Shown here: positions 3,624 through 49,725 of the stretch, piece after piece
How positions within the stretch are numbered: the stretch's first letter is position 1
Layout of the letters: every line of letters begins with the position of its first letter
NCBI RefSeq assembly: GCF_007747445.1
Contig: NZ_CP036425.1
Location: 186,001-250,000, forward strand
Source: Poriferisphaera corsica
GTDB taxonomy: Bacteria > Planctomycetota > Phycisphaerae > Phycisphaerales > Phycisphaeraceae
Length of the DNA: 64,000 bases
Direction of reading: 5' to 3'
The notes under the pieces: generated by a model
Told to the model about the DNA's origin: nothing
Database searches by the model: none
The model's input: the letters and a program-made list of their open reading frames with translations, nothing else
Position numbers and translations under genes: made by a program

Positions 3624-3749
3624 TAGAGCAGTTTGCATGTTGACTTGCCGTGTGAATCAATGTTGCAATCGACAGTCATTTAATCTGAAAACTGTTTTTA
3701 CGTAACGACCAATTGGTCAACGCGGCAAGTGTTTACGCAAAACGCTCTA
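3624..3749. repeat. 126-bp element with imperfect terminal inverted repeats, copy B
   Basis: Begins TAGAGCAGTTTGCATGTTGA and ends GTTTACGCAAAACGCTCTA, whose reverse complement is TAGAGCGTTTTGCGTAAAC, giving imperfect terminal inverted repeats of about 26 bases. It contains the palindrome GACCAATTGGTC. Direct-orientation partner of copy A. It starts 58 bases after murA, and its last bases supply the TAG stop of the next gene. Confidence 0.75.
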
Positions 3750-4241
3750 ATACACCTCATCAATTTTTCGCCGCTCACGATCTTTTTCTCTCACCTCAAT
3801 ATCAACCCGAAACGATTTACCCAGACGCGTACGTTCCCATGGCCGGCGGTAATCTATAACCAGTCTCACTTCGCCTGACTTCTTTGCCTTAAACCGCCAT
3901 ACACTTTCCCCGCCTGTTCCCACCATCCCTTCTTCTCTTTCATCCTTCTCATACTCACCCAATCCTTCTTGTTCTAGCACACCATCCCCACTCCAGCCAC
4001 GCGGCAACATCCACATATACCCTGTCGTCCGATTACTCTCAAGTTCTACCACAACCTCATCACCTTCCCATACCGTCACCGTTTTTCCATCATCCTTCTC
4101 AGTGATCCGGACAACCGTAAATAGTCGCGGCGCCTCTTCACCATCCACATGATCCTTCCCATCAACCCGCGTATCGCCCGAGCAGGCACCTACCAGCATC
4201 AACAATGTCATCACTAATATTAAAATAACGCCCTTTAGCAT
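3747..4241 (-). CDS. Chagasin-family (I42) protease-inhibitor-like lipoprotein
   Basis: 164 residues. The signal peptide ends in the lipobox LVGAC, so Cys20 should be lipidated and the protein envelope-anchored. The globular part carries the three chagasin loops in order: NRTTGYMW (family NPTTGY), GTGGESVWRFKA (GxGG loop) and YRRPWE (RPW loop). Chagasin-like proteins inhibit papain-type cysteine proteases by inserting these loops in the active site. A paralogue lies immediately upstream (4308-4847), so the two may form an operon. The TAG stop lies inside the terminal inverted repeat of element copy B, suggesting the insertion reset the C-terminus. Confidence 0.85.
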   Translation of the reverse strand: MLKGVILILVMTLLMLVGACSGDTRVDGKDHVDGEEAPRLFTVVRITEKDDGKTVTVWEGDEVVVELESNRTTGYMWMLPRGWSGDGVLEQEGLGEYEKDEREEGMVGTGGESVWRFKAKKSGEVRLVIDYRRPWERTRLGKSFRVDIEVREKDRERRKIDEVY

Positions 4242-4307: not shown

Positions 4308-4847
4308 TCAATAATACCGCCCTCTGCCATGCTCACTCCCCTCACCGTCCTCCTGTACGACCGGGTAATTCGCCGTCTCGCCTTTCACTACATTCACCGT
4401 TACCCGAAACACCTTCATCGGTTCTTCATCCTTCTCATAAGGCCGGTGATAAATAAACTTCAAATTGACCAGCCCCGTTTTATTTGCCAAAAAGATCCAC
4501 GTCCTGATGCCCCCCGTCCCCACAGCTTTCCCTTCCTCATCCTCGTCAGGCTCAAACAACGGCCTGCCCACCGGTGCCAAAATCTCTCGACGGTCCTGCG
4601 ACAACGTCCACAAAAACCCCGTCGTCGGATCCGCTCTCAGCCGCACATGCAAACTCTCTCCCGTCTTGATATACACCAGCGCCCCATTGTCTTCACCACT
4701 CACAACCTCAACCTTCTTACCACGCCCATCCAGCGTCTTCATCGTCTTCGCCGTTGGATAGTATGGCTCCTGGCAGCCGACCATTGCCGATGCCCACAGT
4801 ACCACACCAATAGCTACCAATATAATCCGCAGATCGCTTATTGCCAT
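4308..4847 (-). CDS. Chagasin-family (I42) protease-inhibitor-like lipoprotein, second copy
   Basis: 179 residues from ATG 4845-4847, chosen because GGGAG lies 8 bases upstream; an in-frame GTG 18 bases earlier is less likely. Signal peptide with lipobox MVGCQ. Inhibitor loops: DPTTGFLW, GTGGIRTWIFLA and YHRPYE, the last a variant of RPW. It is clearly related to the neighbouring 3747-4241 product but diverged, so this is an old tandem duplication. The likely role is protection against or control of cysteine proteases in the envelope, inferred from the family. The gene ends 66 bases before its partner starts. Confidence 0.85.
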   Translation of the reverse strand: MAISDLRIILVAIGVVLWASAMVGCQEPYYPTAKTMKTLDGRGKKVEVVSGEDNGALVYIKTGESLHVRLRADPTTGFLWTLSQDRREILAPVGRPLFEPDEDEEGKAVGTGGIRTWIFLANKTGLVNLKFIYHRPYEKDEEPMKVFRVTVNVVKGETANYPVVQEDGEGSEHGRGRYY

Positions 4848-4983
4848 CCGTTTTTCTCCCGACACGCATTCATTTCCAACCCTCTTTTACCCTCGTATCT
4901 CCGCTATCGTCAACATTCATCCGCCAAATAACCGCCTATCTATGTAATAGGGGATTGACACCATAACTTTGAAAATCAATAAC

Positions 4984-11390: not shown

Positions 11391-12434
11391 ATGACTATTT
11401 TAAGGGATAGAACATTGCAGCAGCATCACGTGAGTATCAATGGGCTCTCATCGAATCAATATATTGAGGGGGTTTATGCGGTCCAAAATTGTCAGTTGGG
11501 GATGACGAAGAATGGCAAGCCGTTCTTGAAGTGTTTGATTGCTGACAAGACGGGCCGGACACCGGGTCGGATGTGGAATGCCTCGGAAGAGTTGTACGCA
11601 ACGCTGCCAACGGATGGTTTTGTCTACATACAGGCGCAAACTCAGCCGTATCAGGGTGAGATACAGTTGATCATTCAGAATATTAAGCCGCATGTCCCAA
11701 CGGATACTGAGCTGCGTGAGTTGGTGCCAACCACGAAGTTTAGTATTGACGAGATGTTCAGCGAGGTATTGCGTATGTTGGGTTCGATCGAGAATCCGGT
11801 GATCGCAGCCATTGCGAACGAGTACTTGTCTGACGGTCAGTTGATGGATCGTTTCTGCAATGCACCTGCGGCTCAGGTGTTACATCATGCATACTTGGGT
11901 GGGTTGTTGGAGCACACGTTGTCGGTGATGAAGTTGGCGGAATCGATCTTGCCGCACTATCCGGGCGTGAACCGTGATGTGGTGGTTTTTGGTTTGTTCC
12001 TGCACGACTTGGGCAAGTGTGAGGAACTGTCGTGGGAGGCTGGCTTCTCGTATACGGATGTGGGGCAGCTGATTGGTCATATTGGCCAAGGTGTGCTGAT
12101 GTTGGAGAAGAAGATTGAGGCGGTTGAACGTGAGCCAGAGCATGCAGACGATCCTGCTGCGGTGAAGGTGCCGAAGGCGATTAAGCACATGCTGCATCAC
12201 ATCATTTTGTCGCATCATGGTGAGCCTGAGTTTGGGGCGCTTAAGATACCGGCGTCTGCTGAGGCGATTCTGATTTCGCATATTGATAATTTGGATGCGA
12301 AGATGAATATGGCGATCAGTGAGACGCGTAATGAGGAAAGTAAGCCGGCGCCTGGTGCGGGGAACTTTACGGAAAAGATTTGGGCGCTGAATACGAAGCT
12401 GTATCGTCCTGACCCGACGACAGTTGAAGACTAA
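11391..12434 (+). CDS. YhaM-like 3'-5' exoribonuclease (OB fold plus HD domain)
   Basis: 347 residues. N-terminal OB-fold nucleic-acid-binding domain (about 15-110: VYAVQNCQLGMTKNGKPFLK, then GRMWNASEE), followed by an HD phosphohydrolase domain (about 160-320) with HHAYLGGLLEHT, LFLHDLGK (the HD pair) and HHIILSHHGEPEFG as metal ligands. This architecture and order match YhaM of Bacillus, which degrades RNA and DNA from the 3' end with Mn2+ or Co2+. The C-terminus NFTEKIWALNTKLYRP is also conserved in that family. The start ATG lacks a strong Shine-Dalgarno. Confidence 0.88.
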   Translation: MTILRDRTLQQHHVSINGLSSNQYIEGVYAVQNCQLGMTKNGKPFLKCLIADKTGRTPGRMWNASEELYATLPTDGFVYIQAQTQPYQGEIQLIIQNIKPHVPTDTELRELVPTTKFSIDEMFSEVLRMLGSIENPVIAAIANEYLSDGQLMDRFCNAPAAQVLHHAYLGGLLEHTLSVMKLAESILPHYPGVNRDVVVFGLFLHDLGKCEELSWEAGFSYTDVGQLIGHIGQGVLMLEKKIEAVEREPEHADDPAAVKVPKAIKHMLHHIILSHHGEPEFGALKIPASAEAILISHIDNLDAKMNMAISETRNEESKPAPGAGNFTEKIWALNTKLYRPDPTTVED

Positions 12435-12466: not shown

Positions 12467-12508
12467 AAAGGCTGCGAGTTTATAAAGCTCGCGGCCTTTA
12501 TCTATTTT
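12467..12508 (+). terminator. Terminator of the YhaM-like gene
   Basis: AAAGGCtGCGAG and CTCGCgGCCTTT form a stem followed by ATCTATTTT. The same tail follows the hairpin after the second NxxGxxxF gene. Confidence 0.65.
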
Positions 12509-12635: not shown

Positions 12636-14324
12636 ATGAAATTCGGGAGCCTAAAGTGTTGTGTGCTGGGTGTATTGATGTGTGGGGGGTTGGGTATGCA
12701 GGTCAGTGGCGCAGAGTTTGAGACGGTTATTTTGAGTGGTGAGGCGGCGGGGGTTGTAGGTAAGACGTTACGGGCGTTTGATCGAGTTGATCTGAACAAT
12801 CATGGGCAGTTGGTGTTTCAGGCGATTGCGGATGATGACGCGGTTGATGAATTGAAGACGTATGCGAATTATTATGTGGATGTGAGTGGTGGGCATCAAC
12901 TGATTGACAGCCAGACGAATGATCATGACTGGTCAATGAAAGGTGGGCAGGGGGTTGCTTTTTCGACGCATGCGTATCCGCTATACCGGACGCAACTGAA
13001 TGATCATGGTGATATCGCATATTTGAAGCTGACGGATGTGTGGAGTGATAATGAACTTCACACTGAAGTCGATGCGCCATTTGAGCTTAGACGAACATCA
13101 ATTAACGGTTCATTAAATGAAGTGTTAGCGAGCAATCAAACGGAGGTTCCAAGTGCAGGTGGTATGCAGTTGGATCATTATTTGGTGAGTGGTAATTTTC
13201 AGCTTCTGAATGATGGCGATGTTACGTTGACGACAAAGGCTGAAGGCTTGAGTGCTGCTGCCTCGGGGCTTGGGATTTATAAAATTGATAGTGAGGGTAT
13301 TGAAAAATTGATTATGACGGGTGATCCGACTGCAACGAACGGGTTGCCGGGGGAGTTTGGCAGTTTTGTGCTTGCACCTTTGTCTCCACGGTTGGTTTCA
13401 CTGAATAGAAATGGTGATGTGCTGGTTGCGCATGATGGTTTGACTAATCCGAATGGTCATTTTGGTTGGAATGCGAATGTGACGAAATATGATGCATCAA
13501 CAGGAGAGTTGGATGCGATTACACGTGTTGGTGATCCTGCGCCGGGGTATGAGGATGGTGCGTATTTATATACAGGTTTTAGAGCGCCGGCGGGGCCTGT
13601 CATCAATGATAATGGGACGATGTTTTTAGAGTTTGTGGTTCGAGATCCATCTAATGCGAGTGTGTTTCAAAAGGCGTTGTATATATATGATGAGGATGGG
13701 ATGACGCGGGTTGCCAATTCGGGTGCATCGGGTGGTGTTGTGGTCGATGATTATGATTTTGAAACATTGACATCCCCTTTTGCGTACAACAATCGTGATC
13801 AGTTTATGTTTATGGCGATGCCGGCGATCACGGACCCGGCACTTAGTTTGTATATGGGGAGTAAGTCTGGTTGGGAAGCCGTTGCTGTGATTGGTGAAGC
13901 GGCGGCGGGATTTGAATCAGAAGGATATGTTTATCGACAGATTCTTGCGGATCGCGCTTGGCGGGATCAGGAATCAGTGCAGTTAAATGACAATGGTGCG
14001 GCGGCGTTTTTGGCTGTGGTTGGCGAGGGGTTTGATAATTTAGAGGTGTTGTATGGCCGGGGAGCTGAGGGTGAGCTTGAAGTGATTGCGTATGAGGGGA
14101 TGGGATTCGAAGTGATGGCAAATGGTGTGTTAGAAATGCGGGTGATTGAGTCGTTTAATGTGGATCTGTTTGATTTGAACAATCAGAACATGCTGGCGTT
14201 TGGGTTGGAGTTTGAGGATGGTAGCTCGGGGATTTTTACGACGATGGTGCCTGAGCCGATGAGTGGGGCGGTGATGGGGATGATGGCATTGGGTGTTTTG
14301 GCTAAGCGGCGCCGTGTGGGCTGA
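12636..14324 (+). CDS. NxxGxxxF tandem-repeat PEP-CTERM protein, paralogue 1
   Basis: 562 residues from ATG 12636, chosen because GGAGAG lies 6 bases upstream and a clean signal peptide (MKFGSLKCCVLGVLMCGGLG...) begins here. The mature protein has recurring units built on NxxGxxxF: DLNNHGQLVFQA, QLNDHGDIAYL, VINDNGTMFLEF, QLNDNGAAAFLAV and DLNNQNMLAFGLEF. This is the choice-of-anchor NxxGxxxF repeat family, expected to form a surface beta-structure; its function is not known. The end MVPEPMSGAVMGMMALG...KRRR is a PEP-CTERM signal. First of three tandem paralogues; its last 104 bases before the sorting helix are almost identical to paralogue 2. Confidence 0.88.
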   Translation: MKFGSLKCCVLGVLMCGGLGMQVSGAEFETVILSGEAAGVVGKTLRAFDRVDLNNHGQLVFQAIADDDAVDELKTYANYYVDVSGGHQLIDSQTNDHDWSMKGGQGVAFSTHAYPLYRTQLNDHGDIAYLKLTDVWSDNELHTEVDAPFELRRTSINGSLNEVLASNQTEVPSAGGMQLDHYLVSGNFQLLNDGDVTLTTKAEGLSAAASGLGIYKIDSEGIEKLIMTGDPTATNGLPGEFGSFVLAPLSPRLVSLNRNGDVLVAHDGLTNPNGHFGWNANVTKYDASTGELDAITRVGDPAPGYEDGAYLYTGFRAPAGPVINDNGTMFLEFVVRDPSNASVFQKALYIYDEDGMTRVANSGASGGVVVDDYDFETLTSPFAYNNRDQFMFMAMPAITDPALSLYMGSKSGWEAVAVIGEAAAGFESEGYVYRQILADRAWRDQESVQLNDNGAAAFLAVVGEGFDNLEVLYGRGAEGELEVIAYEGMGFEVMANGVLEMRVIESFNVDLFDLNNQNMLAFGLEFEDGSSGIFTTMVPEPMSGAVMGMMALGVLAKRRRVG

Positions 14325-14361
14325 TTGGTTGTTAGGTGGGTTGATAAAATAGGAAAGTTAG

Positions 14362-14392
14362 AGCCATGAGTCGATGACTTGTGGCTTTTTTT
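14362..14392 (+). terminator. Terminator after paralogue 1
   Basis: AGCCAtgAGTC and GACTtgTGGCT stem followed by seven T. Confidence 0.75.
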
Positions 14393-14423
14393 GTTAGTAA
14401 ATCGTAAAGCATTCAGTAATGAT

Positions 14424-14452
14424 TTAGATTTGCGGAGACATTGAGTTATAAT
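14424..14452 (+). promoter_or_regulatory. Possible promoter of paralogue 2
   Basis: TATAAT at 14447-14452, with TTAGAT 17 bases upstream as a weak -35, 40 bases before the start codon. Only the -10 is a good match. Confidence 0.35.
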
Positions 14453-14492
14453 TGCATCACGATTTAGCCTAATAATTGACAGGAGAGATGCT

Positions 14493-16166
14493 ATGTCCGG
14501 GAGTAAGTTTGTTGGTGCAGTTGGTGTGTTGGCGTTATTGACAACAGGTATTGCGAGTGGTGGGGTTTTCGAGACCGTTGTTTTATCAGGTGAGCAATCA
14601 ACGATTGGCGAGAAAACGCTTAGATCATTCGATGATGTTGATTTGAATAACAATGGGCAGTTGTTGTTTCAAGCGTTGGTTGATGATGAAGAAGCGGATG
14701 AGTCGTGGGTGCATGCAAATATATATGTTGATGCGATGGGTGGGCGTAAGCTGATTGATTCGGTGGAGCGGGAAGGGGATCTATACATGATGGCTGGTCA
14801 GCACTATACACGTGGCGGTTGGGCGAACGGAGATAAATTTATGGGCGGTTTACATCGCAGTCAGTTGAATGATCGCGGTGATATTGCTTACATCAAGGTT
14901 GATGGTGAATGGGAGCTTAATGGTGGCAGTGCATCGCAGCTATCACATGAGGTTACAGGTAAAGGGATGATGACGCGTGTTGAGGGCGGGCAATCATCGG
15001 TGTTGTTTGGGACGGGGCTTGATATTAATGGGCAGGTGGTCGGTGATAAAGATGCATATCGATATCGTGACTTGCTTGCGCATTCACTTTTTCAGTTGAA
15101 TGAATCAGGGCAGGTGATTACGTTTGCCCGTGAGGAGAATGATCCGGGGTTTAATGGTGAGTACAAGAGCCGCGAATCGGTTTTATCGGGTGGTTTGGAT
15201 GGGACGCAGGTGTTGTTTGACTCTCAATCGGTGGATGAAGCTTGGGAGTTTAACTTTGCTGATTCGTCTTATCGTGAAGCTATATATGCGAATGAACATG
15301 GTGATGTGATTGCATTCAGTGATGGTTTTGGTTTTACTGATCCAATTTTTTATAGCGGCTCTGATCAAAGTATTGTGTCATTTGTTAATCAAGGTGAGGC
15401 CATGCCGGGCTATGGTGAGGGGTCTTATCTACAAGGTCTGATGAAGCCGATGCGGAGTGGCGTGATCAATGATAACGGGACGGTACATTGTGTACTGCGT
15501 GTAAAAGATCCAGATAGTCCAGGCACAGTAAATCTTGGTTTATTTGAGTATAAGAATGATCAGTTACGACTAATTGAAAAATCTGGGAATGGTGGAGAGC
15601 ATCGTTATACATGGAGTATGACGATCATCGATTCCAATAATAATGATACGCTTGTGTATGCGGGGCAAAGTAATTCGATCGTTGGGTATGAGTTTAATAT
15701 GATGCGGGGTGGTGAGGTGAAGAGCATGTACATGACAAATGATCATGCTGCGGGGATGAGTGAGGATTGGAAGTATGGCGTGAATGGCCCTGATTTTTTT
15801 ACTGATGAACAGGATCATTTTCGATTGAATGAGAACGATATTGCTGCGATGGTCATACAGATTCGTGAGAATGAAGATGATCCGATCAATGCGATCTATA
15901 CATACTTTGAAGATGAGATGCAGTTGGTGGTGCATGAGGGGATGGATTTTGAAGTGATGACGGACGAGGGATTGGAAACGCGAGTGATTGAGCGGATTAA
16001 TGCGTCGGTGTTTGATTTGAACAATCAGAATATGCTGGCGTTTGGGTTGGAGTTTGAGGATGGTAGCTCGGGGATTTTTACGACGATGGTGCCTGAGCCG
16101 ATGAGTGGGGCGATTGTGCTGGGGGCTGGGTTAATGGGGTTGGTAAGACGTAAACGTGTTGGGTAA
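14493..16166 (+). CDS. NxxGxxxF tandem-repeat PEP-CTERM protein, paralogue 2
   Basis: 557 residues; AGGAGAG lies 5 bases before ATG 14493. Signal peptide MSGSKFVGAVGVLALLTTGIASG, then the same strand-like repeats: DLNNNGQLLFQAL, QLNDRGDIAYIK, VINDNGTVHCVL, RLNENDIAAMVI and DLNNQNMLAFGLEF. PEP-CTERM end MVPEPMSGAIVLGAGLMG...RRKR. It is as distant from paralogues 1 and 3 over most of its length as they are from each other. However, bases 16009-16112 differ from 14167-14270 at only one position, pointing to gene conversion of the 3' end. It has its own terminator, so the three genes are probably separately transcribed. Confidence 0.88.
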   Translation: MSGSKFVGAVGVLALLTTGIASGGVFETVVLSGEQSTIGEKTLRSFDDVDLNNNGQLLFQALVDDEEADESWVHANIYVDAMGGRKLIDSVEREGDLYMMAGQHYTRGGWANGDKFMGGLHRSQLNDRGDIAYIKVDGEWELNGGSASQLSHEVTGKGMMTRVEGGQSSVLFGTGLDINGQVVGDKDAYRYRDLLAHSLFQLNESGQVITFAREENDPGFNGEYKSRESVLSGGLDGTQVLFDSQSVDEAWEFNFADSSYREAIYANEHGDVIAFSDGFGFTDPIFYSGSDQSIVSFVNQGEAMPGYGEGSYLQGLMKPMRSGVINDNGTVHCVLRVKDPDSPGTVNLGLFEYKNDQLRLIEKSGNGGEHRYTWSMTIIDSNNNDTLVYAGQSNSIVGYEFNMMRGGEVKSMYMTNDHAAGMSEDWKYGVNGPDFFTDEQDHFRLNENDIAAMVIQIRENEDDPINAIYTYFEDEMQLVVHEGMDFEVMTDEGLETRVIERINASVFDLNNQNMLAFGLEFEDGSSGIFTTMVPEPMSGAIVLGAGLMGLVRRKRVG

Positions 16167-16194
16167 TTATTTTAGAAATGTAAGAAATGTTAGG

Positions 16195-16230
16195 GATAAG
16201 GCTGCTCGTAAGGGGCGGCCTTATCTATTT
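16195..16230 (+). terminator. Terminator after paralogue 2
   Basis: GATAAGGC and GCCTTATC stem followed by TATTTT. Tail wording matches the terminator at 12467. Confidence 0.65.
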
Positions 16231-16345
16231 TAACTTTTGAGGTTATGTGTATTTTATGATCGTTTAGGCGAGGCTGATCTCGTAGAATGGTGGCTCATGA
16301 ATCATTGATCAATTTTAAATATAGAGATTCACCGGGAGTGAGCAG

Positions 16346-18022
16346 ATGCTTATTAATATGAGAATGAAGATGGCGGGCTTGGCGATGGTTGCGGGTGTTG
16401 GGATGGTTAGTTTGGCTAATGGGAGCGTGTTTGATACGGTTGTGATGAGTGGTGAGGTTGGTGTTGGTGATAAAACATATGAGAGTTTTAATCGGGTTGA
16501 TATTAATAATCATGGCCAAATCGTGTTTCAAACGGTGATGGACGATGATAATCAATCTGATGATTTGAAGACATATGCCAATTATTATGTGGGTGCGGAT
16601 CGTAATTGTGCTGTGATTGACTCGCTTGTGTCGGGTGATGTGTGGGAGGTGGGTAGTTATAAATATGGATATGCGTTGGCTTCGCCGATGTATCGTACGC
16701 AGATCAATGATCGTGGTGATATTGCGTATGTGAAGATGTTGGAGCCGTGGCCGTCTCATACTATTTATGAAGAAGAACGAGGTGATTTTGAGCTTGTTCG
16801 TGTTGGTGTCGGTGATGTGAACCAAAAGGAGGTGTTGGCGAAGAGTGGTGAGGCGACGGGTGGTGTGATGCCAGACCCATTTAATCAGGGGGCCGCAGCG
16901 GCGCACTATTACAAGTTTTCTGCTGCGGATTATTTTGAATTGAAAGAAAGCGGGTTGATCGGTTTTTCAAGTGGCGTGAGTAAGCAGGGGGAAGGAGATA
17001 CAGAGGATCTGGTTGCGCTGTTTACGATTCAGGGAGGCGGTGTGAATGAAGTGTTTATGGAGGGTAAAGAAGGGATTGGGGGGCCGTTCTGGGCGAATAT
17101 ATATGATCAATATAAGTTTAATGTGAACGGGGCTGGGGATGCGATGTTTGTCCATGATTCAGGGGTGCCAGGAACATACAACGGGTCGTTAGCGTTTTAC
17201 GATTCGGCAACGGGCATGACGACGGAGCTAACAAAGGGTGAAGCGCTTGCGCCTGGGCATGATGATGGGTCGTATTATTCCTCGATCGGTAAGATTGCAA
17301 CGGGGATGTTGATGAATGATAACGGGGTGGGGGTTTTTGAGGCGTATTTGAAGGTTGATGGAAAATCATCTCGTCAAGCGTTGTATCGTTTGGAAGAAGG
17401 CGAAGTGACACTGATTGCAACGTCTGATTTTAATTTTGATGATGAGGGAGAAGAGTTTGGTTTGGTCTATTCGCCGGATGCATTGAACAATCGGAATGAG
17501 TATTTGTTTAGGGCGTGGGAGAGTATGGATAAGCCGTTTCATCAGTTGTATTTTGGGAGTGATGATGGGATCGAGGCGGTTTACAGGTCGGGCGATTTGG
17601 CGGTAGGTTTTGAATCAGAAGATTATCGTTATGTTGGCACAGCATTTGATTTGATATGGCGTGATCAAGAGCAAATACAGTTGAATGAGCAGGGGGTTGC
17701 AACGTTTATTGTTGCATTAGATAAAGAGGGTGTTGGTGGAAAAACTGCGTTGTATTCACGTGGTATAGATGGGGCTCTGGATTTGATTGCCCATACAGGT
17801 GAGGAAATTGAGGTGATGGTGGATGGACAGTTAGTCATGAAAACAATCAAAGCATTTGATCATGATTTATTTGATCTGAATGATGAGAATGTACTGGCAT
17901 TTGGGTTGGAGTTTATGGATGGCAGTTCGGGGCTGTTTACGACGATGGTACCTGAGCCGATGAGCGGTGTGGTGCTGAGTGTGATGGGGATGTGTGGTTT
18001 GATGCGGCGGCGAATTGGATGA
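16346..18022 (+). CDS. NxxGxxxF tandem-repeat PEP-CTERM protein, paralogue 3
   Basis: 558 residues; GGGAG about 10 bases before ATG 16346. Signal peptide MLINMRMKMAGLAMVAGVGM...ANG. Repeats: DINNHGQIVFQTV, QINDRGDIAYVK, LMNDNGVGVFEAY, QLNEQGVATFIVA and DLNDENVLAFGLEF. The C-terminus MVPEPMSGVVLSVMGMCGL...RRR is a PEP-CTERM signal. Likely secreted and exosortase-processed like its neighbours. Unlike paralogues 1 and 2, its 3' end has diverged at the DNA level, so it did not share in the conversion event. Confidence 0.88.
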   Translation: MLINMRMKMAGLAMVAGVGMVSLANGSVFDTVVMSGEVGVGDKTYESFNRVDINNHGQIVFQTVMDDDNQSDDLKTYANYYVGADRNCAVIDSLVSGDVWEVGSYKYGYALASPMYRTQINDRGDIAYVKMLEPWPSHTIYEEERGDFELVRVGVGDVNQKEVLAKSGEATGGVMPDPFNQGAAAAHYYKFSAADYFELKESGLIGFSSGVSKQGEGDTEDLVALFTIQGGGVNEVFMEGKEGIGGPFWANIYDQYKFNVNGAGDAMFVHDSGVPGTYNGSLAFYDSATGMTTELTKGEALAPGHDDGSYYSSIGKIATGMLMNDNGVGVFEAYLKVDGKSSRQALYRLEEGEVTLIATSDFNFDDEGEEFGLVYSPDALNNRNEYLFRAWESMDKPFHQLYFGSDDGIEAVYRSGDLAVGFESEDYRYVGTAFDLIWRDQEQIQLNEQGVATFIVALDKEGVGGKTALYSRGIDGALDLIAHTGEEIEVMVDGQLVMKTIKAFDHDLFDLNDENVLAFGLEFMDGSSGLFTTMVPEPMSGVVLSVMGMCGLMRRRIG

Positions 18023-18055
18023 TGGGTGACGCTGGGTAGATATGATTGATATTGA

Positions 18056-18087
18056 GACTGCAAGCGTTAGGTTTGCAGTCTTTTTTT
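18056..18087 (+). terminator. Terminator after paralogue 3
   Basis: GACTGCAA and TTTGCAGTC stem followed by seven T. Confidence 0.85.
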
Positions 18088-18319: not shown

Positions 18320-18721
18320 ATGCATATGAAGGCGTCGGATCACGATCATGGGCCGAAGACGGTGAAGGTGAAATTTTTGCTTGAAGATCCTGAAGGGTTG
18401 ACAGGAGATGGTGGTAAAGAAGAGGTCGAGTGCAAGGGAGCGATTGGCGAGAATATCTTGGAGATCGCGTTGGAGAACGGCATTAACATTGAACATGCTT
18501 GTGGAGGTGTGTGTGCGTGCTCGACGTGTCACATCTATTTGGAGGAGGGGGAGAACGCATGTAACGAGCCAGAGGATGATGAGCTTGATCGAGTTGAAGA
18601 AGCTCCGGGAATTCAGATGAACTCGCGATTATCGTGTCAGACGGTGATTGAGAGTGAGGAGCCGATTGTTGTGAAGATACCGGCGTGGAATCGTAATGCG
18701 GTGAAGGAAGTGCCGCATTAG
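18320..18721 (+). CDS. 2Fe-2S ferredoxin, adrenodoxin/Isc type
   Basis: 133 residues; GAGGAG 7 bases before ATG 18320. The cluster ligands follow the Cys-x5-Cys-x2-Cys...Cys pattern of adrenodoxin-type ferredoxins: HACGGVCACSTCH and, about 36 residues on, SRLSCQ. An extra Cys lies inside the first loop. The acidic stretch NEPEDDELDRVEE is the usual partner-docking region. It should be a soluble one-electron carrier, as in Fe-S cluster assembly or hydroxylase systems. No isc genes are adjacent, so the partner cannot be named. The His-rich N-terminal extension (MHMKASDHDHG) is unusual. Confidence 0.9.
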   Translation: MHMKASDHDHGPKTVKVKFLLEDPEGLTGDGGKEEVECKGAIGENILEIALENGINIEHACGGVCACSTCHIYLEEGENACNEPEDDELDRVEEAPGIQMNSRLSCQTVIESEEPIVVKIPAWNRNAVKEVPH

Positions 18722-18774: not shown

Positions 18775-19133
18775 ATTGAAAAGGTGATGAGCATCGAGGC
18801 AAAATTAGACTGATTAAGCTTTCATTTGGTGAAATATAACTAACAATAAAAGCATGTACTTAGCTGAAAAATCGAGGCAATATGACCAGATGCCTAGCGA
18901 TTCGTAAGTACGAAAAATCTATCGAATATGCATTGACTTGATTGTTAGGTGTTTTTAGAATTCATGATTGCAATAGTTGCTCAAAATGTGCCTTATTAAA
19001 AGGCAAAAGTGTATTTAGCAACAAGGCAAATTTAGTGATTAAGAAAACTATATTATTTCTACTTGTCATTTAGATCTAGGGTGCATGTTTCACCTCTTCT
19101 CAATATTCGATTTTGTTCAATAAAGGAATTGTC
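18775..19133. other. Intergenic, no gene seen
   Basis: Strongly AT-rich leader of the prepilin-like gene, with several short TGCC/GGCA inverted words (for example GTGCCTTATTAAAAGGCAAA). No recognised riboswitch or RNA. Confidence 0.4.
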
Positions 19134-19973
19134 ATGTCAAGGGAATCAAGAAATGGTGTCTGGGATGGTTTCACGTTAATTGAATTGCTTGTTGTAATTT
19201 CAATTATAGCATTGCTGATTGGTATACTGCTGCCTGCTTTGGGGGCGGCGAGAAAAACGGCGATGGCGGTAAAATGCAACAGCATGTTACGGCAATTTAA
19301 TACGGGGAATTATATGTATGCGACAGATAGTGATGGATGGAAAGTGCCTACGCATGCGCCATGGGATACATCTAATCAGTTGCGATGGATTATCAACAAA
19401 TCCTTTTCGTCATATGTTGCATCTGCGGCTGATTATAAGTCGACGGGTAGTGAAGGTTGGACTGCAGAGTATTTTTGTCCGGAAGCAACCTCGGCGATTG
19501 AGGGCGATAATTACTGGGATGAGCCATCTATCTATTTTTCATATACGATGAATGCATCAGACTGGCATTGGTATAACGCGTTAGGAAAAATGGATGAATA
19601 TCCGCATTCGAGTGGTAGTTGGAAAGGTGCATTTAGGATGTCAAGTGTGAAAGTGCCGACGGAAGTCATTTTTATGGCAGATGGTTTCTCGGATGCTTTT
19701 GTTTCGCCTGCGGAGGATCGATATGTTAGTGAAACGTATCATAGTTGGTCATCTAGTAAGGGGGCGCAGTTGGCGGATCAGGCTAAGGGTTCAGGAACGA
19801 TTGGGTATCGGCACCCAGGTAACTCGGCTAATCTCGCGTTTTTAGATGGGCATAATGAAAGCATGTCGGTCGAGGTGTTGGCAGAAGATTATAAGAAATA
19901 TTTTTATGATATTGATCAGCGTAAGACAGCCCCGGATTCGATTGGGCGTAATGTTCCACATCCGAGGCCATAG
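19134..19973 (+). CDS. Prepilin-type N-terminal domain protein with H-X9-DG end
   Basis: 279 residues from ATG 19134, chosen over 19113 because AAAGGA lies 6 bases upstream. Leader [21 protein letters not shown]: cleavage after Gly, then Phe, Glu at +5 and a hydrophobic helix. The tail carries YRHPGNSANLAFLDGHNES, the planctomycete H-X9-DG pattern. Domain middle has aromatic motifs (YFSYTMNASDWHWYN). Probably exported and assembled or anchored through the pilin helix; the substrate or role is unknown. It is convergent with a closely related gene (20036-20854), with which it shares layout and the phrases SSDWVLYN/ASDWHWYN and PYAHS/YPHSS. Confidence 0.87.
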   Translation: MSRESRNGVWDGFTLIELLVVISIIALLIGILLPALGAARKTAMAVKCNSMLRQFNTGNYMYATDSDGWKVPTHAPWDTSNQLRWIINKSFSSYVASAADYKSTGSEGWTAEYFCPEATSAIEGDNYWDEPSIYFSYTMNASDWHWYNALGKMDEYPHSSGSWKGAFRMSSVKVPTEVIFMADGFSDAFVSPAEDRYVSETYHSWSSSKGAQLADQAKGSGTIGYRHPGNSANLAFLDGHNESMSVEVLAEDYKKYFYDIDQRKTAPDSIGRNVPHPRP

Positions 19974-20035: not shown

Positions 20036-20854
20036 TTAATAGTTAAGTGGGTCGGGCAAAATTTTATTGTATTTACCATCGATGTAATATTTTGTCCATT
20101 CATTTTGCTCTCCAGCCGACTCGTAACCGTTCATTTGATCTTGCTTTATTGATTCGGTGTGCCCGTCCATGAAGACTGAGTTTGCGGATTTTGAGGGGTG
20201 ACGAAATGCGATATTACCGTTATAACGCCAACCATTTTCAGGATGTTCGTCGGTGCCTTTGTAATTACGATGAGCGCCAAAATTGTAGTTATCTTGTAAG
20301 CCATCAGCAAAATGTGAAACATCTGTTGGTGTTGTAAGCGAAGATAAGCGATACATCCCGCGAATAAGGTTGCTATGAGCATAAGGTTCTGTTACCCAGC
20401 TTTGATTATATAAAACCCAATCAGACGAGTTTGCAGAATATGATCTGGGCATACCATTGAGATTGCCGCTGGAATTACGTTCAAAAGCAAGTGATGCGTC
20501 GGGGCAAAAGAATTCGGGTGTCCATGCATGCCAACCGTTTACATCCTTAACTTCATTCGCGACATATTGAGCAAAGGGGATGTTGTCCCACCATGGATCG
20601 GTTTCCGCAGCAGATGTAGCCCCAGCGGCCCAAGCTGGAACGACGTAATCATCGAAGTCATTCGCATAAAGGTATACGGCTAAGCCAAATTGTTTGAGCA
20701 TACTGCTGCATTTGATTGATTTGGCTGTTGAGCGAGCGGCGCCTAGAGCTGGGAGTAGGATGCCGATAAGGAGGGCAATAATAGATATGACGACGAGAAG
20801 TTCGATGAGCGTGAAAGCGAAACGATTTCTATAATCAACTGATCTTGGAAACAT
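20036..20854 (-). CDS. Prepilin-type N-terminal domain protein with H-X9-DG end
   Basis: 272 residues; AGGA lies about 9 bases before the ATG. The leader [20 protein letters not shown] departs from the rule: cleavage would follow Ala rather than Gly, a known but less common variant. Pilin helix to about residue 38, then AAGATSAAETDPWWDN, SYSANSSDWVLYN and the closing FRHPSKSANSVFMDGHTES, which fits H-X9-DG. Close paralogue of the convergent gene at 19134-19973, so the pair probably arose by inverted duplication. Role unknown beyond the family's export and pseudopilin-like character. Confidence 0.87.
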   Translation of the reverse strand: MFPRSVDYRNRFAFTLIELLVVISIIALLIGILLPALGAARSTAKSIKCSSMLKQFGLAVYLYANDFDDYVVPAWAAGATSAAETDPWWDNIPFAQYVANEVKDVNGWHAWTPEFFCPDASLAFERNSSGNLNGMPRSYSANSSDWVLYNQSWVTEPYAHSNLIRGMYRLSSLTTPTDVSHFADGLQDNYNFGAHRNYKGTDEHPENGWRYNGNIAFRHPSKSANSVFMDGHTESIKQDQMNGYESAGEQNEWTKYYIDGKYNKILPDPLNY

Positions 20855-23616: not shown

Positions 23617-25179
23617 CTACTCTTGCCCGTCGGGTTGATCGTTTTCGTGCTCAGCTTTGAGGTTGTCGAGGTGAGCTTGTGTGGTTTTGAGGAACAGTTG
23701 GAGGAGGATGGGTTGATTTGCATTTGAGTATGAAATGGCGGCGGTGATATCGGTTTGGTTCAGGCCATGTTGTTCGTTGCCTTGCGGGTTGTATGGATTG
23801 CCAAGGTTGTCAGTGTTGTCGGGGCCAGGATGATAGACGAGCAGGCCGTTGCTGGTGGTTCGGAGTTTGTAGTCGTTGGTTATCTGTTCGTCGATTTCGC
23901 CCGCAGCGTTTAATAGGTTGATTGACAAATGATTTGAGGTCAGGTTGGCCAAGTTTTGAGGTGGTTGTCTATTTGAGAGATAGAATCGGTATGAGGCAAT
24001 TGCGAGCTGCGTTGTGGTTAGTTCGTATTCGATTTGATGGAAGGTTTTGATTGTTGCTTTATGAGCGGGGAGTAATGTGTTTGTGGCGATGTAGACGAAG
24101 GGTGCTTGCTGTATCAGTTTGCTGGCGTTGGGCAGGGTGTTTTTAGATGCAATGATGTCCTTCTTGATTGCGTCATAATATTGAATTGCGAAGAGTTTTT
24201 CTTTTTTGTTTAAGCCAAGGTGGTGCATGATCGGGTTGTTGGCATAGAAATTAATGCCCGCAAAGAGTGCTGATCGTTCACCCTGAAGCGTTTTAATCAA
24301 TGTACTGTCGGCATTAATGGGTGTGAGGATCGTTTGTAGTTGTACGAGTTGCTGGTCATTAAAGAGGTGGGCGTTGATCGCACGTTGCGCTTCTTTGTTG
24401 AGCAGGCTGAGCAATGAAGTGCGTACGAGCTGGCCGATGAGGAAGGGCTCGTTTTCAAGTGTGTTTGCGAGTGAACGAATGGTAGTCAGTGTTTGCAGCG
24501 CATCGTTAGGTTGTTTTTCATGAACGGCGAGCCAGTGTGCAAGCTGGAGATGACGGGAAGTGTTTCTGATTTGCTGGAGATGATCTGCGGGCCCTAAGAG
24601 TGGGAATTGGAACTGAGTATCGCGGTAAAAGCAGCCGGTGAAGATGGGCGGGTTTAGTAGCTCGCTGAGATCTTCCTGAATAGAAGCGAGATATGTTTTT
24701 GTGTCATTGAGGACGATGAGAGGCGGGGTGAGGTTGAGGCGTGTGTACTCTGAAGGGGTTTCGGTGAAAAAGGGGATTTGAGGTGTGTCAGCTGAGGGCA
24801 GGCTGGGCATCATCATTTGTGTTGCTGCGGGGTTGAGTGGGCTGGTCGTGTCGAAGATTTCTGAGGCTACGGTGAGGGCGTCGAAGCGGGGTGTGTAGTA
24901 ATCGGCGGCGTTGAGGCCGTTGATGGGCTTGGTGTATTGAGCTTGAATGTCTTGTAAGGTGATGAGCTCGCCATTGGCGCGGAGGCGAACGAATTCGGCA
25001 GTGAGTTTGTTATCGAGATGACGGTGCCAAAGGAAATAAGAGATGGTGAGGGTGATTAGGCTGAGCAGTATGGTGGTGGCGAGTATGACGAGAATGATTT
25101 TGAGGATACTGCGGCGAGGCCTTGGAGTGTTGAAGTGTTTATTAGATGAAGTGTTTTGCGGTATGGTTTGCGATGACAT
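23617..25179 (-). CDS. Single-pass membrane protein of an unnamed family, paralogue A
   Basis: 520 residues from ATG 25177-25179, chosen because GGAG lies 9 bases upstream. A cytoplasmic tail (about 25 residues, basic) precedes one transmembrane helix (about 27-50, LKIILVILATTILLSLITLT), then a large helical domain outside. Landmarks shared with 46197-47846 and 48079-49725: ITLQDIQAQYTKP...AADYY, HWLAVHEKQPNDALQTLTTI, NEPFLIGQLVR, HLFNDQQLVQL, GERSALF, and near the C-terminus VYHPGPDNTDNLGNPYNPQG. The last motif recalls the GxDxxDNxG segment found in some planctomycete surface proteins. No known domain; function unknown. Confidence 0.8.
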   Translation of the reverse strand: MSSQTIPQNTSSNKHFNTPRPRRSILKIILVILATTILLSLITLTISYFLWHRHLDNKLTAEFVRLRANGELITLQDIQAQYTKPINGLNAADYYTPRFDALTVASEIFDTTSPLNPAATQMMMPSLPSADTPQIPFFTETPSEYTRLNLTPPLIVLNDTKTYLASIQEDLSELLNPPIFTGCFYRDTQFQFPLLGPADHLQQIRNTSRHLQLAHWLAVHEKQPNDALQTLTTIRSLANTLENEPFLIGQLVRTSLLSLLNKEAQRAINAHLFNDQQLVQLQTILTPINADSTLIKTLQGERSALFAGINFYANNPIMHHLGLNKKEKLFAIQYYDAIKKDIIASKNTLPNASKLIQQAPFVYIATNTLLPAHKATIKTFHQIEYELTTTQLAIASYRFYLSNRQPPQNLANLTSNHLSINLLNAAGEIDEQITNDYKLRTTSNGLLVYHPGPDNTDNLGNPYNPQGNEQHGLNQTDITAAISYSNANQPILLQLFLKTTQAHLDNLKAEHENDQPDGQE

Positions 25180-25517
25180 GCTCAGACTCCGGAAGGGTAT
25201 GGCTTTAAAGGTATTGATATGATACTGCAGGTAGAAAAGGCTGTCGTGACAATTTAGCACTGGATTTATGCATGTTTGGGGGATGATTGGTGAAAAGTCT
25301 GGTGGAAGTAAGACGATTGGTTGAGGGTGCTGGGGCGCGTTAAGATATGGGTCTGTCCTGCAACGGGGCGGCGTTGCCTGTCTGCTTGTTTGTATTGATA
25401 TGAATGATGAATGTCGCGGCTGATACTTTAAAGATTAAGGTAGAAGGCGGCGATGCTGTTGCATTGGGTTATTGATCCGGTGTGATAGTTCTAATCAGGT
25501 ATTAGTAGGTCGAAAAT
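25180..25517. other. Intergenic between divergent genes
   Basis: Promoter region of the membrane-protein gene and the SulP gene. Nothing else recognised. Confidence 0.4.
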
Positions 25518-45935: not shown

Positions 45936-46196
45936 TCCCCCCCTGTTCGTAAAGTCAAACTTCCAATCTCGCCCCGACATGCAGCGTAATCACCTGCAAC
46001 TCAACGAGTCACAGATTCTTCCCCCCCCCATCAAAGCCAATCCCTCTCAACATCCAAACCGCGCTCTCACGCACTTCCGATCCCAAGCGTTTCTAGCACT
46101 CGCACTAGCCACTAGCACATCTTCCCCGCCCCATCTTGCAACATCTCGCATTTGGTCACGTCTGTATTACAGACACCCAATTTCCGGAGATCTGCT
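45936..46196. other. Intergenic, no gene seen
   Basis: C-rich spacer, including an eight-C run near 46021, leading to GGAG 46184-46187 before the next gene. Confidence 0.4.
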
Positions 46197-47846
46197 ATGT
46201 CAACCAACCAATCTGATGCAACGTCGCAATATTGCCCATTTAAACTCCGCCGCTTCTGCCTAAAAGCCTTCTTCCTCTACCTCCCCTTCCTCATCATTTT
46301 CATCCTCTTCCCCATCTACCTCCTCTGGCACGCCTACCTCGACTACCGCATCGACTCCGAAATCCAAGCCGTCCGCGATCGGCAAGGCCACAACCTCATC
46401 ACCGCCCAAGACCTCACCGAAAAATATGAAGTCATCGACGAACCCAACCTCGCCGACTATCTCAACTTCCATATCAGCGTCTTAGCCAAGTCCGACGACA
46501 AATACACAGCCGACAACAACCCCAAAGACCCCGAAACCGCAACCCCCGCCCAGCTCGCCGCCACCCTTTTTCCCGGCATGACCCCATACGAACTCGATGA
46601 ATGGACTTCAATCAACCAAACCCCACCAGACATCCTCATTAGCGCAACCGAAAACTACCTCAAAGCCCAGCAACCCGTCCTCGACCCACTCCTCAACCTC
46701 CCCCCATACCAGACCGCCGTCTGGACGAAAAACTACAACGATGGCATCGCCGTCCTCCTTCCCCATCTCGGCAATCTTCGCCGCGCAGCCCGCACACTCA
46801 AAATCTACAATTGGCTCGCCGTTCACCAGAACCGCTCCCAAGATTCACTTCGCGCCCTCACTTCCCTCAAACACTTCGCCGATTCGCTCAACAACGAACC
46901 TATCCTCATTACCTACCTCGTCAACATCTCCATCCGTTCACTCCTCTACGAACAGATCGAGCTCGGCCTAAACCATCACATCTACAACGACTCACAACTC
47001 CAGCAACTCGCCGCCCTCGCCGAACCCATCAACGTCAAAGACTCATTCCTCCATTCAATGCTCGGCGAACGTGCCGCACTCCTGCACTACCTCGATAACA
47101 TCTACAAAAACCCCAAATTTACCATGGATTTTGCCGGCGACCCCATCCCATACCCCGTCGTTTTTCTTCAACATCATCTCGGCCTCCTCAAAACCGATAC
47201 CCTCGCCGCCATCAAACTGCACAACAAAGTCTACGACGAATTCCAAAAACCAATCCCCGATATATCCAGCCTTGATGATCAGATCGTTGATCTCAACCGT
47301 CTCACCACCATGCACACCCGTTACATCTTCCCCGCCCTCGGTGCAGCCGACCAATCTTTCGAAAAAGTACACCACAAAGCAGTCACCCTCCAGATCGCTC
47401 TCGCCATCGAACGTTTCTATCTTGCTAATAGAGACGAAGTTTCCTCACTTCACGAAGCCCTCCCTAACGATCTTCATGAACTCGTCCCCGACTATCTTGC
47501 CGCTGTACCCGTCGACATGACTCTCGGCAAATCAGGCCGCGGTAAAATCGCCGCCCCCGAATACCAATACATTCACGACGACCACGGCTACATCATCTAC
47601 ACACTCGGCCGTGACAAAACCGACAACCTCGGCTGCCCCTTCAATTCAAACGGCAATATCACCAACGGCAACCCCAACGATCCCTCCGACATCACCACTG
47701 CCGTCACCTTCCCGGGCTCCCAACAAAACATCCTCCAATCCCAGTACCCCCAGGCATACCAAAAATTCGCAGACAACATCACCACCGCCCACGAAGAATA
47801 TTTCAGCTTTATCAATACCAAAGACCCCGACGACCAATCCAACTAA
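46197..47846 (+). CDS. Single-pass membrane protein of an unnamed family, paralogue B
   Basis: 549 residues from ATG 46197; CGGAG lies 7 bases upstream. Short polar N-terminus, one membrane helix (about 24-45, FFLYLPFLIIFILFPIYLLW) and a large outside domain. Shared landmarks with paralogues A and C: TAQDLTEKYEV...LADYL, NWLAVHQNRSQDSLRALTSL, NEPILITYLVN, HIYNDSQLQQL, GERAALLHYLDN, FYLANR and IYTLGRDKTDNLGCPFNSNG. The motif order and length are the same in all three. No domain recognised. It sits just downstream of dnaA and upstream of paralogue C. Confidence 0.8.
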   Translation: MSTNQSDATSQYCPFKLRRFCLKAFFLYLPFLIIFILFPIYLLWHAYLDYRIDSEIQAVRDRQGHNLITAQDLTEKYEVIDEPNLADYLNFHISVLAKSDDKYTADNNPKDPETATPAQLAATLFPGMTPYELDEWTSINQTPPDILISATENYLKAQQPVLDPLLNLPPYQTAVWTKNYNDGIAVLLPHLGNLRRAARTLKIYNWLAVHQNRSQDSLRALTSLKHFADSLNNEPILITYLVNISIRSLLYEQIELGLNHHIYNDSQLQQLAALAEPINVKDSFLHSMLGERAALLHYLDNIYKNPKFTMDFAGDPIPYPVVFLQHHLGLLKTDTLAAIKLHNKVYDEFQKPIPDISSLDDQIVDLNRLTTMHTRYIFPALGAADQSFEKVHHKAVTLQIALAIERFYLANRDEVSSLHEALPNDLHELVPDYLAAVPVDMTLGKSGRGKIAAPEYQYIHDDHGYIIYTLGRDKTDNLGCPFNSNGNITNGNPNDPSDITTAVTFPGSQQNILQSQYPQAYQKFADNITTAHEEYFSFINTKDPDDQSN

Positions 47847-48078: not shown

Positions 48079-49725
48079 GTGGCAACAACAAAAAAACCTT
48101 CAAAGATCAAAAAGGTCTTCCGTGTCATCGCTTATCTCGTACTCAGCCTCATCCTCTTAGCCACCGCATCTCTCATCACCATCTACACCGCCTGGCATTA
48201 CTATCTCAACACGCAGGTCGAACAAGCATTCGCCCCAATCAAAAATCAAGATCGGCCGCTCACCCTCACAGAAATCCAAACCGCATACACCACCGACAAC
48301 AACACCGCCGCCGCCGACTACTACCTCCCCATCATGCAGTCATACGTTGAATCCTTCGAACGATACAACACCGCTTACGACGAAGCTCCAGAAGATCAGT
48401 GCGCACTTCTTGAAATCCCTTTCATTCTCGATGCTCCCGACACATGGCATCACTCCAAACAATCTCCCCCAGAGCAGCTTCTGACCGCAACGCGTAAATA
48501 CCTCGCACAAAACGACGCAACCATTCAGGAGCTCATCAACGCGCCCACATTTAGTAATGCCCACTTCCCCCCAGATTACACCAAAGGCTTCGAGACCGAC
48601 ATGCCTCACCTCGGTCAATTCAGACAATCCGCCCGCCTGCTCCGCCTCTATCATTGGCTAGCAATCTATGAAAACCGTCCCAAAGATGCCCTCAAAGCAA
48701 TCACCGCCATCAAAAAACTTTCTGATATCTTACACACGGAACCCACACTCATCGGCAGCCTCGTCCGACTCTCTATCCACCGCTTAGTTGCGGACGAATC
48801 AGTCCGCGTTCTCAACCTTCATCTCTACAACGATCAACAACTGCAAGCCCTCTATCATCTCAATCAACCACTCAACTCAAAAGACATTGTCCTCAAGGCT
48901 CTCGAATACGAACGCGTGATGGCGATGGACGGTATCGACCGTATGGAAAATCAAGATACCACCGCCATCACCTCGAAAAACGTCCCATACGTCAGTTTCC
49001 TCTACAGCCATCTTGGTCTCGGCGACCTCGATCGCGTCAAAATCACCGAACTGCACCAACAAATGAGAGATCGTCTCAACCAAGATGATTGGTATCTTTA
49101 TGATATCGAAGATCAAATCGATGACCTACCGCTCATTTACGCCATGACCAAAGTGTTCATGCCCGCACTCTCAGCCGCTACCAACACCTTCGCTCAGGCT
49201 CACGAAGAAGCCGTCGCTATCCAACTCGCTATCGCCACGCAACGCTATTATCTCGCAAACAAGCAATTGCCCAAAACATTCGATGCACTCGTACCAACCT
49301 ATATCACCAAAGTCCCTGTCGACGAAATTTACTACAACCAGCCTTATCAACTCATCACCCATACCGCCGGCTACATCGTCTATACACCCGGCTATGATGA
49401 AGTCGACAACAAAGGCCAACGCACCAGCGAAGGCGAAGTCGGCCGAGGTGACGATGAATTTACGGACATCTCAATCGCCGTCTCATTCAAAGGTCAAGAT
49501 ATCCTTCTCGAACTGTTCCCCGAAGAAGAACAACTCATCATCGACGAACTCGAATTTGATATCACGAACTACTTCCATCGACTCAACGGTGAACCGGAAG
49601 AATATCCAACCATGAATTTCGACAACATGCTCCCGTTCCTTGGCGGCATGATGATCGATGAGTTTGACCCCGAACTCGAAGAAGAACACGATTTTGACGA
49701 AACACTATTTGAAGAAGTCGAGTAA
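48079..49725 (+). CDS. Single-pass membrane protein of an unnamed family, paralogue C
   Basis: 548 residues from GTG 48079 with GGAGA 5 bases upstream. Basic start, membrane helix about 12-35 (VIAYLVLSLILLATASLITI), then the outside domain. Matches to A and B: TLTEIQTAYTTDNN...AADYY, HWLAIYENRPKDALKAITAI, TEPTLIGSLVR, LHLYNDQQLQAL, YERVMAMDGID, RYYLANKQLPKTFDALVP and VYTPGYDEVDNKGQRT. The C-terminus is strongly acidic (DEFDPELEEEHDFDETLFEE), unlike A and B. Convergent with pdhB across a GCGC/AAAA-rich block. Confidence 0.8.
   Translation: MATTKKPSKIKKVFRVIAYLVLSLILLATASLITIYTAWHYYLNTQVEQAFAPIKNQDRPLTLTEIQTAYTTDNNTAAADYYLPIMQSYVESFERYNTAYDEAPEDQCALLEIPFILDAPDTWHHSKQSPPEQLLTATRKYLAQNDATIQELINAPTFSNAHFPPDYTKGFETDMPHLGQFRQSARLLRLYHWLAIYENRPKDALKAITAIKKLSDILHTEPTLIGSLVRLSIHRLVADESVRVLNLHLYNDQQLQALYHLNQPLNSKDIVLKALEYERVMAMDGIDRMENQDTTAITSKNVPYVSFLYSHLGLGDLDRVKITELHQQMRDRLNQDDWYLYDIEDQIDDLPLIYAMTKVFMPALSAATNTFAQAHEEAVAIQLAIATQRYYLANKQLPKTFDALVPTYITKVPVDEIYYNQPYQLITHTAGYIVYTPGYDEVDNKGQRTSEGEVGRGDDEFTDISIAVSFKGQDILLELFPEEEQLIIDELEFDITNYFHRLNGEPEEYPTMNFDNMLPFLGGMMIDEFDPELEEEHDFDETLFEEVE

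Follow-up and report, generated by a model that had tools for sequence, protein, structure and literature searches.

Evidence for recent gene conversion at the sorting-tail end of two tandem surface-protein genes in Poriferisphaera corsica

Three tandem surface-protein genes

The DNA examined here is a 64,000-nucleotide (nt) window of Poriferisphaera corsica, whose whole genome comprises 4,291,168 bases in one contig. The window contains three tandem plus-strand genes for surface proteins of the DUF7453 family, found where the original prediction had placed them and referred to below as genes 1, 2 and 3 (Table 1). Genes 1 and 2 are diverged overall and share a tract of 104 bases near their 3' ends that differs at one position. 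Recent interlocus gene conversion, occurring after P. corsica and its sister species P. heterotrophicis ZRK32 had split, explains this tract best; we would put its probability at roughly 0.9.

All three proteins can be assigned to DUF7453 (PF24251), with scores of 107.8, 60.0 and 105.6 bits for genes 1, 2 and 3 against a curated cut-off of 26.2 bits. The NxxGxxAF repeat profile TIGR05002 (cut-off 50 bits) gives 53.3 bits for gene 1, 37.2 for gene 2 and 40.6 for gene 3. A VPEP motif, a hydrophobic helix and a C-terminal basic cluster can be recognized by eye in each protein. With the PEP-CTERM profile TIGR02595, genes 1 and 2 score 15.1 and 13.7 bits, both under the cut-off of 16 bits, and gene 3 has no match at an expect value (E) of 1; because the scores stay below the cut-off, we call the tails PEP-CTERM-like. 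Three exosortase matches over cut-off are present in the P. corsica genome.

A near-identical tract in otherwise diverged genes

The bodies of genes 1 and 2 have 34.0% protein identity (161 of 474 residues), and the identity of the whole genes in DNA is 0.517. Within the tract, 103 of the 104 bases agree, as originally noted, and the longest exact run is 81 nt; the sole difference (C at 14189, T at 16031) is synonymous. In register, the flanks of the tract match at 68 of 101 bases upstream and 23 of 51 downstream. The third paralogue had been described as drifted in this segment, which is loosely right: gene 3 does differ (85 of 104 bases shared with gene 1), but this is ordinary divergence, and gene 3 was not converted in this event.

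Synonymous divergence between genes 1 and 2 is not uniform along their length. Differences fall on 1.0 of 20.3 synonymous sites in the tract; the 33 upstream codons have 10.75 of 20.3, and the 17 downstream codons 10.2 of 13.7. At identical residues with degenerate codons, the same codon is used at 30 of 31 positions in the tract versus 89 of 164 outside it (Fisher test, 1e-6); the corresponding comparisons for genes 1 and 3 (p 0.3) and genes 2 and 3 (p 0.094) are not significant. The best 34-codon window contains 33 identical codons, a count reached in none of 20,000 shuffles of the codon columns (maximum 22), and in a GENECONV-like run test the observed run was reached by 0 of 20,000 shuffles with one mismatch allowed and by 1 of 20,000 with none. 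Chance is thereby excluded as the source of the identity. When the tract is used to search the whole genome at E 0.001, genes 1, 2 and 3 are the only matches, gene 3 at 84% over 98 bases; with a longer query and E 0.1, the extra matches in the P. corsica genome are 21 to 32 bases long.

At the protein level, the tract coincides with a block conserved across all five copies, that is, the three genes here and the two of ZRK32 described below. The original prediction assigned the segment to the end of the surface domain and the PEP motif. This holds for residues 511-545, which include the last strands of the domain, VPEP and MSGA; most of the transmembrane helix and the Arg cluster lie outside. 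An AlphaFold2 model built on three sequences (mean predicted local distance difference test score, pLDDT, 70.4; predicted template modelling score 0.76) places in the tract the end of a single strand, the domain's last two strands and the PEP site, and has the helix starting from residue 544; mean pLDDT by block is 84 to 89 over residues 511-540 and under 40 beyond. In a structure comparison with the PDB, the 50 matches listed have template modelling (TM) scores of at most 0.37 by query length and 0.46 by target length. Many of them are, judging from their names, what we take to be propeller-type proteins, and others are large complexes; the matches are too weak to name a fold for the surface domain.

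Table 1. Positions of the genes, the tract and neighbouring features in the window
Feature	Position	Strand	Description
Left syntenic neighbour	11391..12434	+	291/347 amino acids identical in ZRK32
Terminator-like hairpin, between left neighbour and gene 1	12467..12499	+	Consensus scan only
Gene 1, probable donor	12636..14324	+	DUF7453 surface protein, 562 amino acids, PEP-CTERM-like tail
Tract in gene 1	14167..14270	+	Residues 511-545: surface-domain end, VPEP, MSGA
Remaining gene 1 tail	14271..14321	+	Membrane helix, Arg cluster; outside tract; 23/51 bases match gene 2
Terminator-like hairpin, 3' of gene 1	14360..14388	+	Consensus scan only
Gene 2, probable recipient	14493..16166	+	DUF7453 surface protein, 557 amino acids; long branch
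Tract in gene 2	16009..16112	+	103/104 same as gene 1
Remaining gene 2 tail	16113..16163	+	Membrane helix, basic cluster; diverged from gene 1
Terminator-like hairpin, 3' of gene 2	16194..16226	+	Consensus scan only
Gene 3	16346..18022	+	DUF7453 surface protein, 558 amino acids
Homologous stretch in gene 3	17868..17971	+	85/104 to gene 1; not converted in this event
Terminator-like hairpin, 3' of gene 3	18054..18082	+	Consensus scan only
Right syntenic neighbour	18320..18721	+	114/133 amino acids identical in ZRK32

Comparison with the sister species

In the genome of ZRK32 (CP066225.1; 5,234,020 bases), the syntenic locus has two genes, flanked by the same neighbours as here, and no third gene. 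A search of genome contigs with gene 1 returned no relatives, and a search with an alignment as query returned one locus, that of ZRK32; since these searches reach ZRK32 only, they supply no further species for dating the event. A body tree of 17 rows places gene 1 with ZRK32 L031:8463-10322(-) (support 87/93, not starred) and gene 3 with L031:6610-8280(-) (98/98, starred). The body of gene 1 is 40.3% identical to its ZRK32 orthologue; identity is lower with gene 3 (38.4%) and gene 2 (34.0%). Judging from the body tree and these identities, gene 2 does not appear to be a recent copy of gene 1. It could be an old copy that was lost from ZRK32, or a newer one that diverged quickly.

The tract gives a different picture. 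Gene 1 matches gene 2 at 103 of the 104 bases, gene 3 at 85 and its own orthologue at 76, or 99% for gene 2 versus 73% for the orthologue; gene 3 and its orthologue likewise match at 76. (An extra codon before the PEP motif of L031:6610-8280 was gapped for these figures.) Between the two ZRK32 genes there are 78 matching positions, and between either of them and the window genes 71 to 77, so the near-identity is not shared by the sister species. Uniform synonymous divergence and an ancestral identity level common to strains, the two outcomes named in advance as refuting the original prediction, were thus not observed, ZRK32 taking the place of strains in the second. The history of the tract conflicts with that of the bodies, with the caveat that gene 2 is a long branch and that a seven-row tree, described below, resolves less. 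In three flanking orthologues, 0.71 to 0.74 of synonymous sites differ between P. corsica and ZRK32; the species split is therefore old, and the conversion much younger.

In both species, the tracts of the paralogues are closer to each other (85 and 78 of 104, the second difference being slight) than to their orthologues (76 and 76), whereas in the bodies the orthologues are closer (40.3 and 41.2%) than the paralogues (38.4 and 34.6%). These values hint that older rounds of conversion may have preceded the recent one in both species.

Gene conversion and its alternatives

Synonymous identity that is localised, sharp edges and a conflict between body and tract with respect to ZRK32 together support the recent conversion that had been proposed. 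Genes 1 and 2 would have been old tandem paralogues before the event, and about 104 bp of gene 1 would have been copied over the matching part of gene 2, non-reciprocally and after the split. RecA-type or template-switch repair may have been seeded in the conserved block, where conservation of the protein would keep the DNA of old paralogues similar enough for pairing, and conversion would end where homology drops on either side. Gene 2 would keep its own body and membrane helix while gaining the last domain strands and PEP site of gene 1. Consequences for the protein are probably minor; as gene 2 would then carry the last strands and PEP site of gene 1, both proteins would presumably remain substrates of the same sorting machinery.

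Copying probably went from gene 1 to gene 2. Within the tract, NNQ and an E before DGSSG are common to gene 1 and its ZRK32 orthologue and absent from gene 3 and its orthologue, which favours gene 1 as the donor. At 10 tract sites, genes 1 and 2 have the base of the gene 1 orthologue and gene 3 has another.

Several observations weigh against this explanation or its direction. At seven tract sites, genes 1 and 2 share with the gene 3 orthologue a base that gene 3 lacks, and at six sites gene 3 has the base of the gene 1 orthologue and gene 1 does not; these counts point to a donor assignment that depends on few characters. In the 17-row body tree gene 2 falls in neither orthologue pair and forms a third branch without resolved placement. 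A tree of seven rows, which resolves neither orthologue pair, puts it in the gene 3 group (84/84) with a long-branch flag. Codon choice in the two bodies is not fully randomised, as the 89 of 164 shared codons indicate. Prior to conversion, identity between the copies was probably only about 80%, which is little for RecA-type pairing; the longest exact run between genes 1 and 3 in the tract, taken as a model for that state, is 15 nt. Finally, the comparison covers two Poriferisphaera genomes and a single P. corsica strain.

Purifying selection alone, acting on the protein segment or on a DNA or RNA element inside it, might also have kept the copies identical, given that few parts of the family are as well conserved in protein sequence as this segment. 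Most of its residues are, however, kept in gene 3 and the ZRK32 copies with different codons: the codon of gene 1 recurs at 17 of 26 positions in gene 3, 13 of 26 in the gene 1 orthologue and 12 of 22 in the gene 3 orthologue, against 30 of 31 in gene 2. These codons largely refute selection as the sole cause, and we regard it as very unlikely. The same low probability applies to a history in which gene 2 arose as a recent full copy of gene 1 and foreign or diverged sequence later took the place of its body and helix. Formally this would produce the same mosaic, and the long branch of gene 2 would suit it, but a replacement is then required on either side of the tract. The G+C content of gene 2 (0.457), its third-position G+C (0.445) and its GC skew (0.42) are similar to those of genes 1 and 3, and the intergenic spaces between the genes have no direct repeat of at least 30 nt.

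Tandem paralogues on one strand are the usual setting for unequal crossing-over, and an exchange between the tails of the array has to be considered for that reason. A crossover causing a duplication predicts near-identical bodies or common downstream sequence, neither of which is found, and the flanks of the tract are diverged on either side; we rate this history as more improbable still. The least credible source is a diversity-generating retroelement or other mobile cassette writing the 3' end, to which we assign a nearly negligible probability. A common stretch of about 100 nt at the 3' ends of genes is the kind of pattern it would leave, but the genome has no reverse transcriptase (PF00078) match and no template copy elsewhere, both at E 0.001, and the lone difference is a synonymous C/T change. 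Gene conversion, probably from gene 1 to gene 2, remains the preferred explanation.

Tail sharing among other neighbouring genes

The tails of other PEP-CTERM-like genes can be compared in a similar way. We used 111 such genes (57 from P. corsica and 54 from ZRK32) taken from clusters: 12 distinct P. corsica clusters besides L033, L034 and the window, and 15 ZRK32 clusters besides L031 and L032, with L085 excluded as lying inside L082. PEP-CTERM matches at E 10 number 142 in P. corsica and at least 150 in ZRK32, and 150 candidates were scored per genome. The clusters were sampled from among the matches listed, so that single PEP-CTERM genes are under-represented. Neighbour pairs are not mutually independent and some have recent common ancestry, a concern that the comparison of bodies answers in part.

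Of 93 pairs of same-strand neighbours, 6 have an exact match of at least 25 bases in the last 210 bases; for distant pairs of one genome the figure is 3 of 2934, and for pairs between genomes 4 of 3078. No match of that length occurs in the bodies of these neighbours (0/93), where exact runs never exceed 19 bases. Shuffling gene positions within genomes gave at most three such pairs in 10,000 trials, never six, and without genes 1 and 2 the neighbour count is still 5 of 92. The same enrichment appears when tails are matched for protein similarity: with at least 14 of 22 residues in common, the counts are 5/46 for neighbours, 3/743 for distant pairs and 3/838 between genomes; with at least 18, 5/18, 3/148 and 0/141; and with at least 20, 4/9, 2/52 and 0/23. 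One ZRK32 pair (677320 and 679108) has unrelated bodies (E 1.3) and 35 exact tail bases in common.

Codon choice at identical tail residues points the same way. Agreement among neighbours is 0.480, against 0.302 predicted from the codon usage of their own bodies, while distant pairs reach 0.327 (0.278 predicted) and pairs between genomes 0.321 (0.276 predicted). The mean z-score of neighbours for tail codons was reached by none of 5000 position shuffles, and z-scores exceed 3 in 12 of 92 pairs of neighbours, 77 of 2906 distant pairs and 73 of 3027 pairs between genomes. An orthologue and a neighbour are both available for 44 genes. The body is closer to the orthologue in 42 of them, and in 14 of these 42 the tail is closer to a neighbour, by more than 10 points in five. 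When neighbours are replaced by random non-neighbours, 300 draws give a mean of 3.7 genes and a maximum of 7; with the 10-point margin these values are 1.0 and 3. Gene 3, one of the 14, is affected by the ungapped extra ZRK32 codon; when this is gapped, it is still nearer to gene 1 than to its orthologue (85 versus 76 of 104).

Two clusters can be mentioned in their own right. At a second syntenic cluster, L034:5029-8450 in P. corsica and L032:4100-9297 in ZRK32, the tails look species-specific: the two P. corsica genes use the same codons at 15 of 20 tail positions versus 69 of 135 body positions, and two of the three ZRK32 genes have 34 exact tail bases in common, despite one pair of bodies being orthologous across species. 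At G000:C1:3387660-3393967 (L081), two large adjoining PEP-CTERM genes (1298 and 685 amino acids) have the strongest excess of tail over body codon agreement of the 47 related neighbour pairs considered below, 15/17 versus 83/224.

Other results argue against a general pattern. Over the 47 neighbour pairs with related bodies, the same codon is used at 354 of 690 identical residues in tails (0.51) versus 2079 of 4439 in bodies (0.47), a modest excess that is carried by few pairs; four pairs have one-sided p values below 0.04 and a fifth 0.048, all uncorrected. For related bodies between genomes, the corresponding counts are 411/903 in tails versus 3578/7487 in bodies; for 25 reciprocal-best pairs, 178/382 versus 1876/3868; and for nine distant related pairs, 43/118 versus 310/741. 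The tails of 44 neighbour pairs with unrelated bodies agree at 242 of 566 positions. In the segment from PEP to stop used here, genes 1 and 2 themselves are not significant (9/11 versus 83/153, p 0.068), because their tract lies further upstream. One between-genome pair, a reciprocal-best one, shares 35 nt.

Two genomes of other genera, G009 and G004, were sampled by 15 and 9 clusters, respectively, from among the matches listed (64 genes, one of them probably a false reading frame). Among pairs of neighbours, 6 of 46 have at least 25 nt in common in the last 210 bases, as do 21 of 1067 distant pairs and 2 of 903 pairs between the genomes; in bodies, the same holds for 4 of the 46 neighbour pairs. 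The best 14 rows are all from G009. Sharing there thus extends beyond tails and beyond neighbours, which again counts against the wider pattern. At G009:C1:1770001-1783000, 1877001-1893000 and 1962001-1968000 (L106, L111 and L118), exact runs of 29 to 62 bases are seen in the last 210 bases. These runs also join distant genes, some of them in bodies, and look like a wider sharing of modules.

A wider pattern of tail conversion between neighbours is likely in part. In its full form, it would make the 3' ends encoding sorting tails preferred sites of local conversion in PEP-CTERM-rich planctomycetes: neighbours, some of them unrelated in their bodies, would rewrite their tails while the exposed bodies diverge, and this concerted evolution, beside duplication, would make tails cluster by species. 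We offer that form as a tentative proposal, somewhat less probable than its opposite.

Relation to known systems

Gene conversion is a known process; the point of interest here is its apparent recurrence at sorting-tail ends. A literature search, with most subscription journals outside its scope, found no report pairing PEP-CTERM with gene conversion or concerted evolution, and none of conversion at sorting tails.

The tuf copies of Salmonella lie far apart on the chromosome, and conversion at VlsE of Borrelia draws on silent cassettes. The P. corsica genes are instead adjacent, with the tract confined to one conserved block. As in the tuf study (PMC5485169), copying would be non-reciprocal, between paralogues on one chromosome and in continuous tracts; the tuf copies are described there as almost identical, whereas the present genes are about 52% identical in DNA. 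The same study reports that mismatch repair cuts tuf conversion 200 to 1000 fold and shortens the tracts (PMC5485169), and by analogy the short P. corsica tract may be in keeping with such an effect. VlsE (PMC9159922) resembles the P. corsica pair in that segments of surface-protein genes are copied between related sequences. It differs in that conversion diversifies the exposed protein, whereas here the bodies differ, the sorting end is made alike and the genes are full ones.

Haft et al. 2006 (PMC1569441) found PEP-CTERM tails to group by species and explained this by paralogous expansion. Our results are similar in that tails are more alike within than between species and the tail is a module of its own; they differ in that one pair offers good support for local conversion and a few more show signs of it. 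Genes 1 and 2 make a clean case of conversion limited to a short protein-conserved block in otherwise half-identical genes, after the species split. If the wider pattern is true, it would provide a mechanism for the within-species likeness of tails noted in 2006, and would call for caution in using tails for family trees or for pairing exosortases and tails by descent.

Other features of the region

The syntenic neighbours on either side of the three genes (Table 1) are presumably an OB-fold/HD-type protein on the left and a 2Fe-2S ferredoxin-like protein on the right, judging from their sequences. The four terminator-like hairpins in the region compare with 3.5 expected from shuffles; all four are intergenic.

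Further genes that look alike occur elsewhere in the window. A convergent pair beside the cluster, at 19113-19973 (+) and 20036-20854 (-), is taken by us to be pseudopilin-like, and two similar-looking genes occur between the same neighbours in ZRK32. On the minus strand, 3747-4241 and 4308-4865 are adjoining small lipoprotein-like genes with the motifs TTGYMW and TTGFLW, which recall, we assume, chagasin-type inhibitors. Proteins of about 550 amino acids with an N-terminal hydrophobic stretch, similar by eye, are encoded at 23617-25260 (-), 46152-47846 (+) and 48079-49725 (+), two of them in tandem. Two small adjoining PEP-CTERM genes at 53088-53681 and 53796-54560 (both on the minus strand) are similar by eye in bodies as well as tails.

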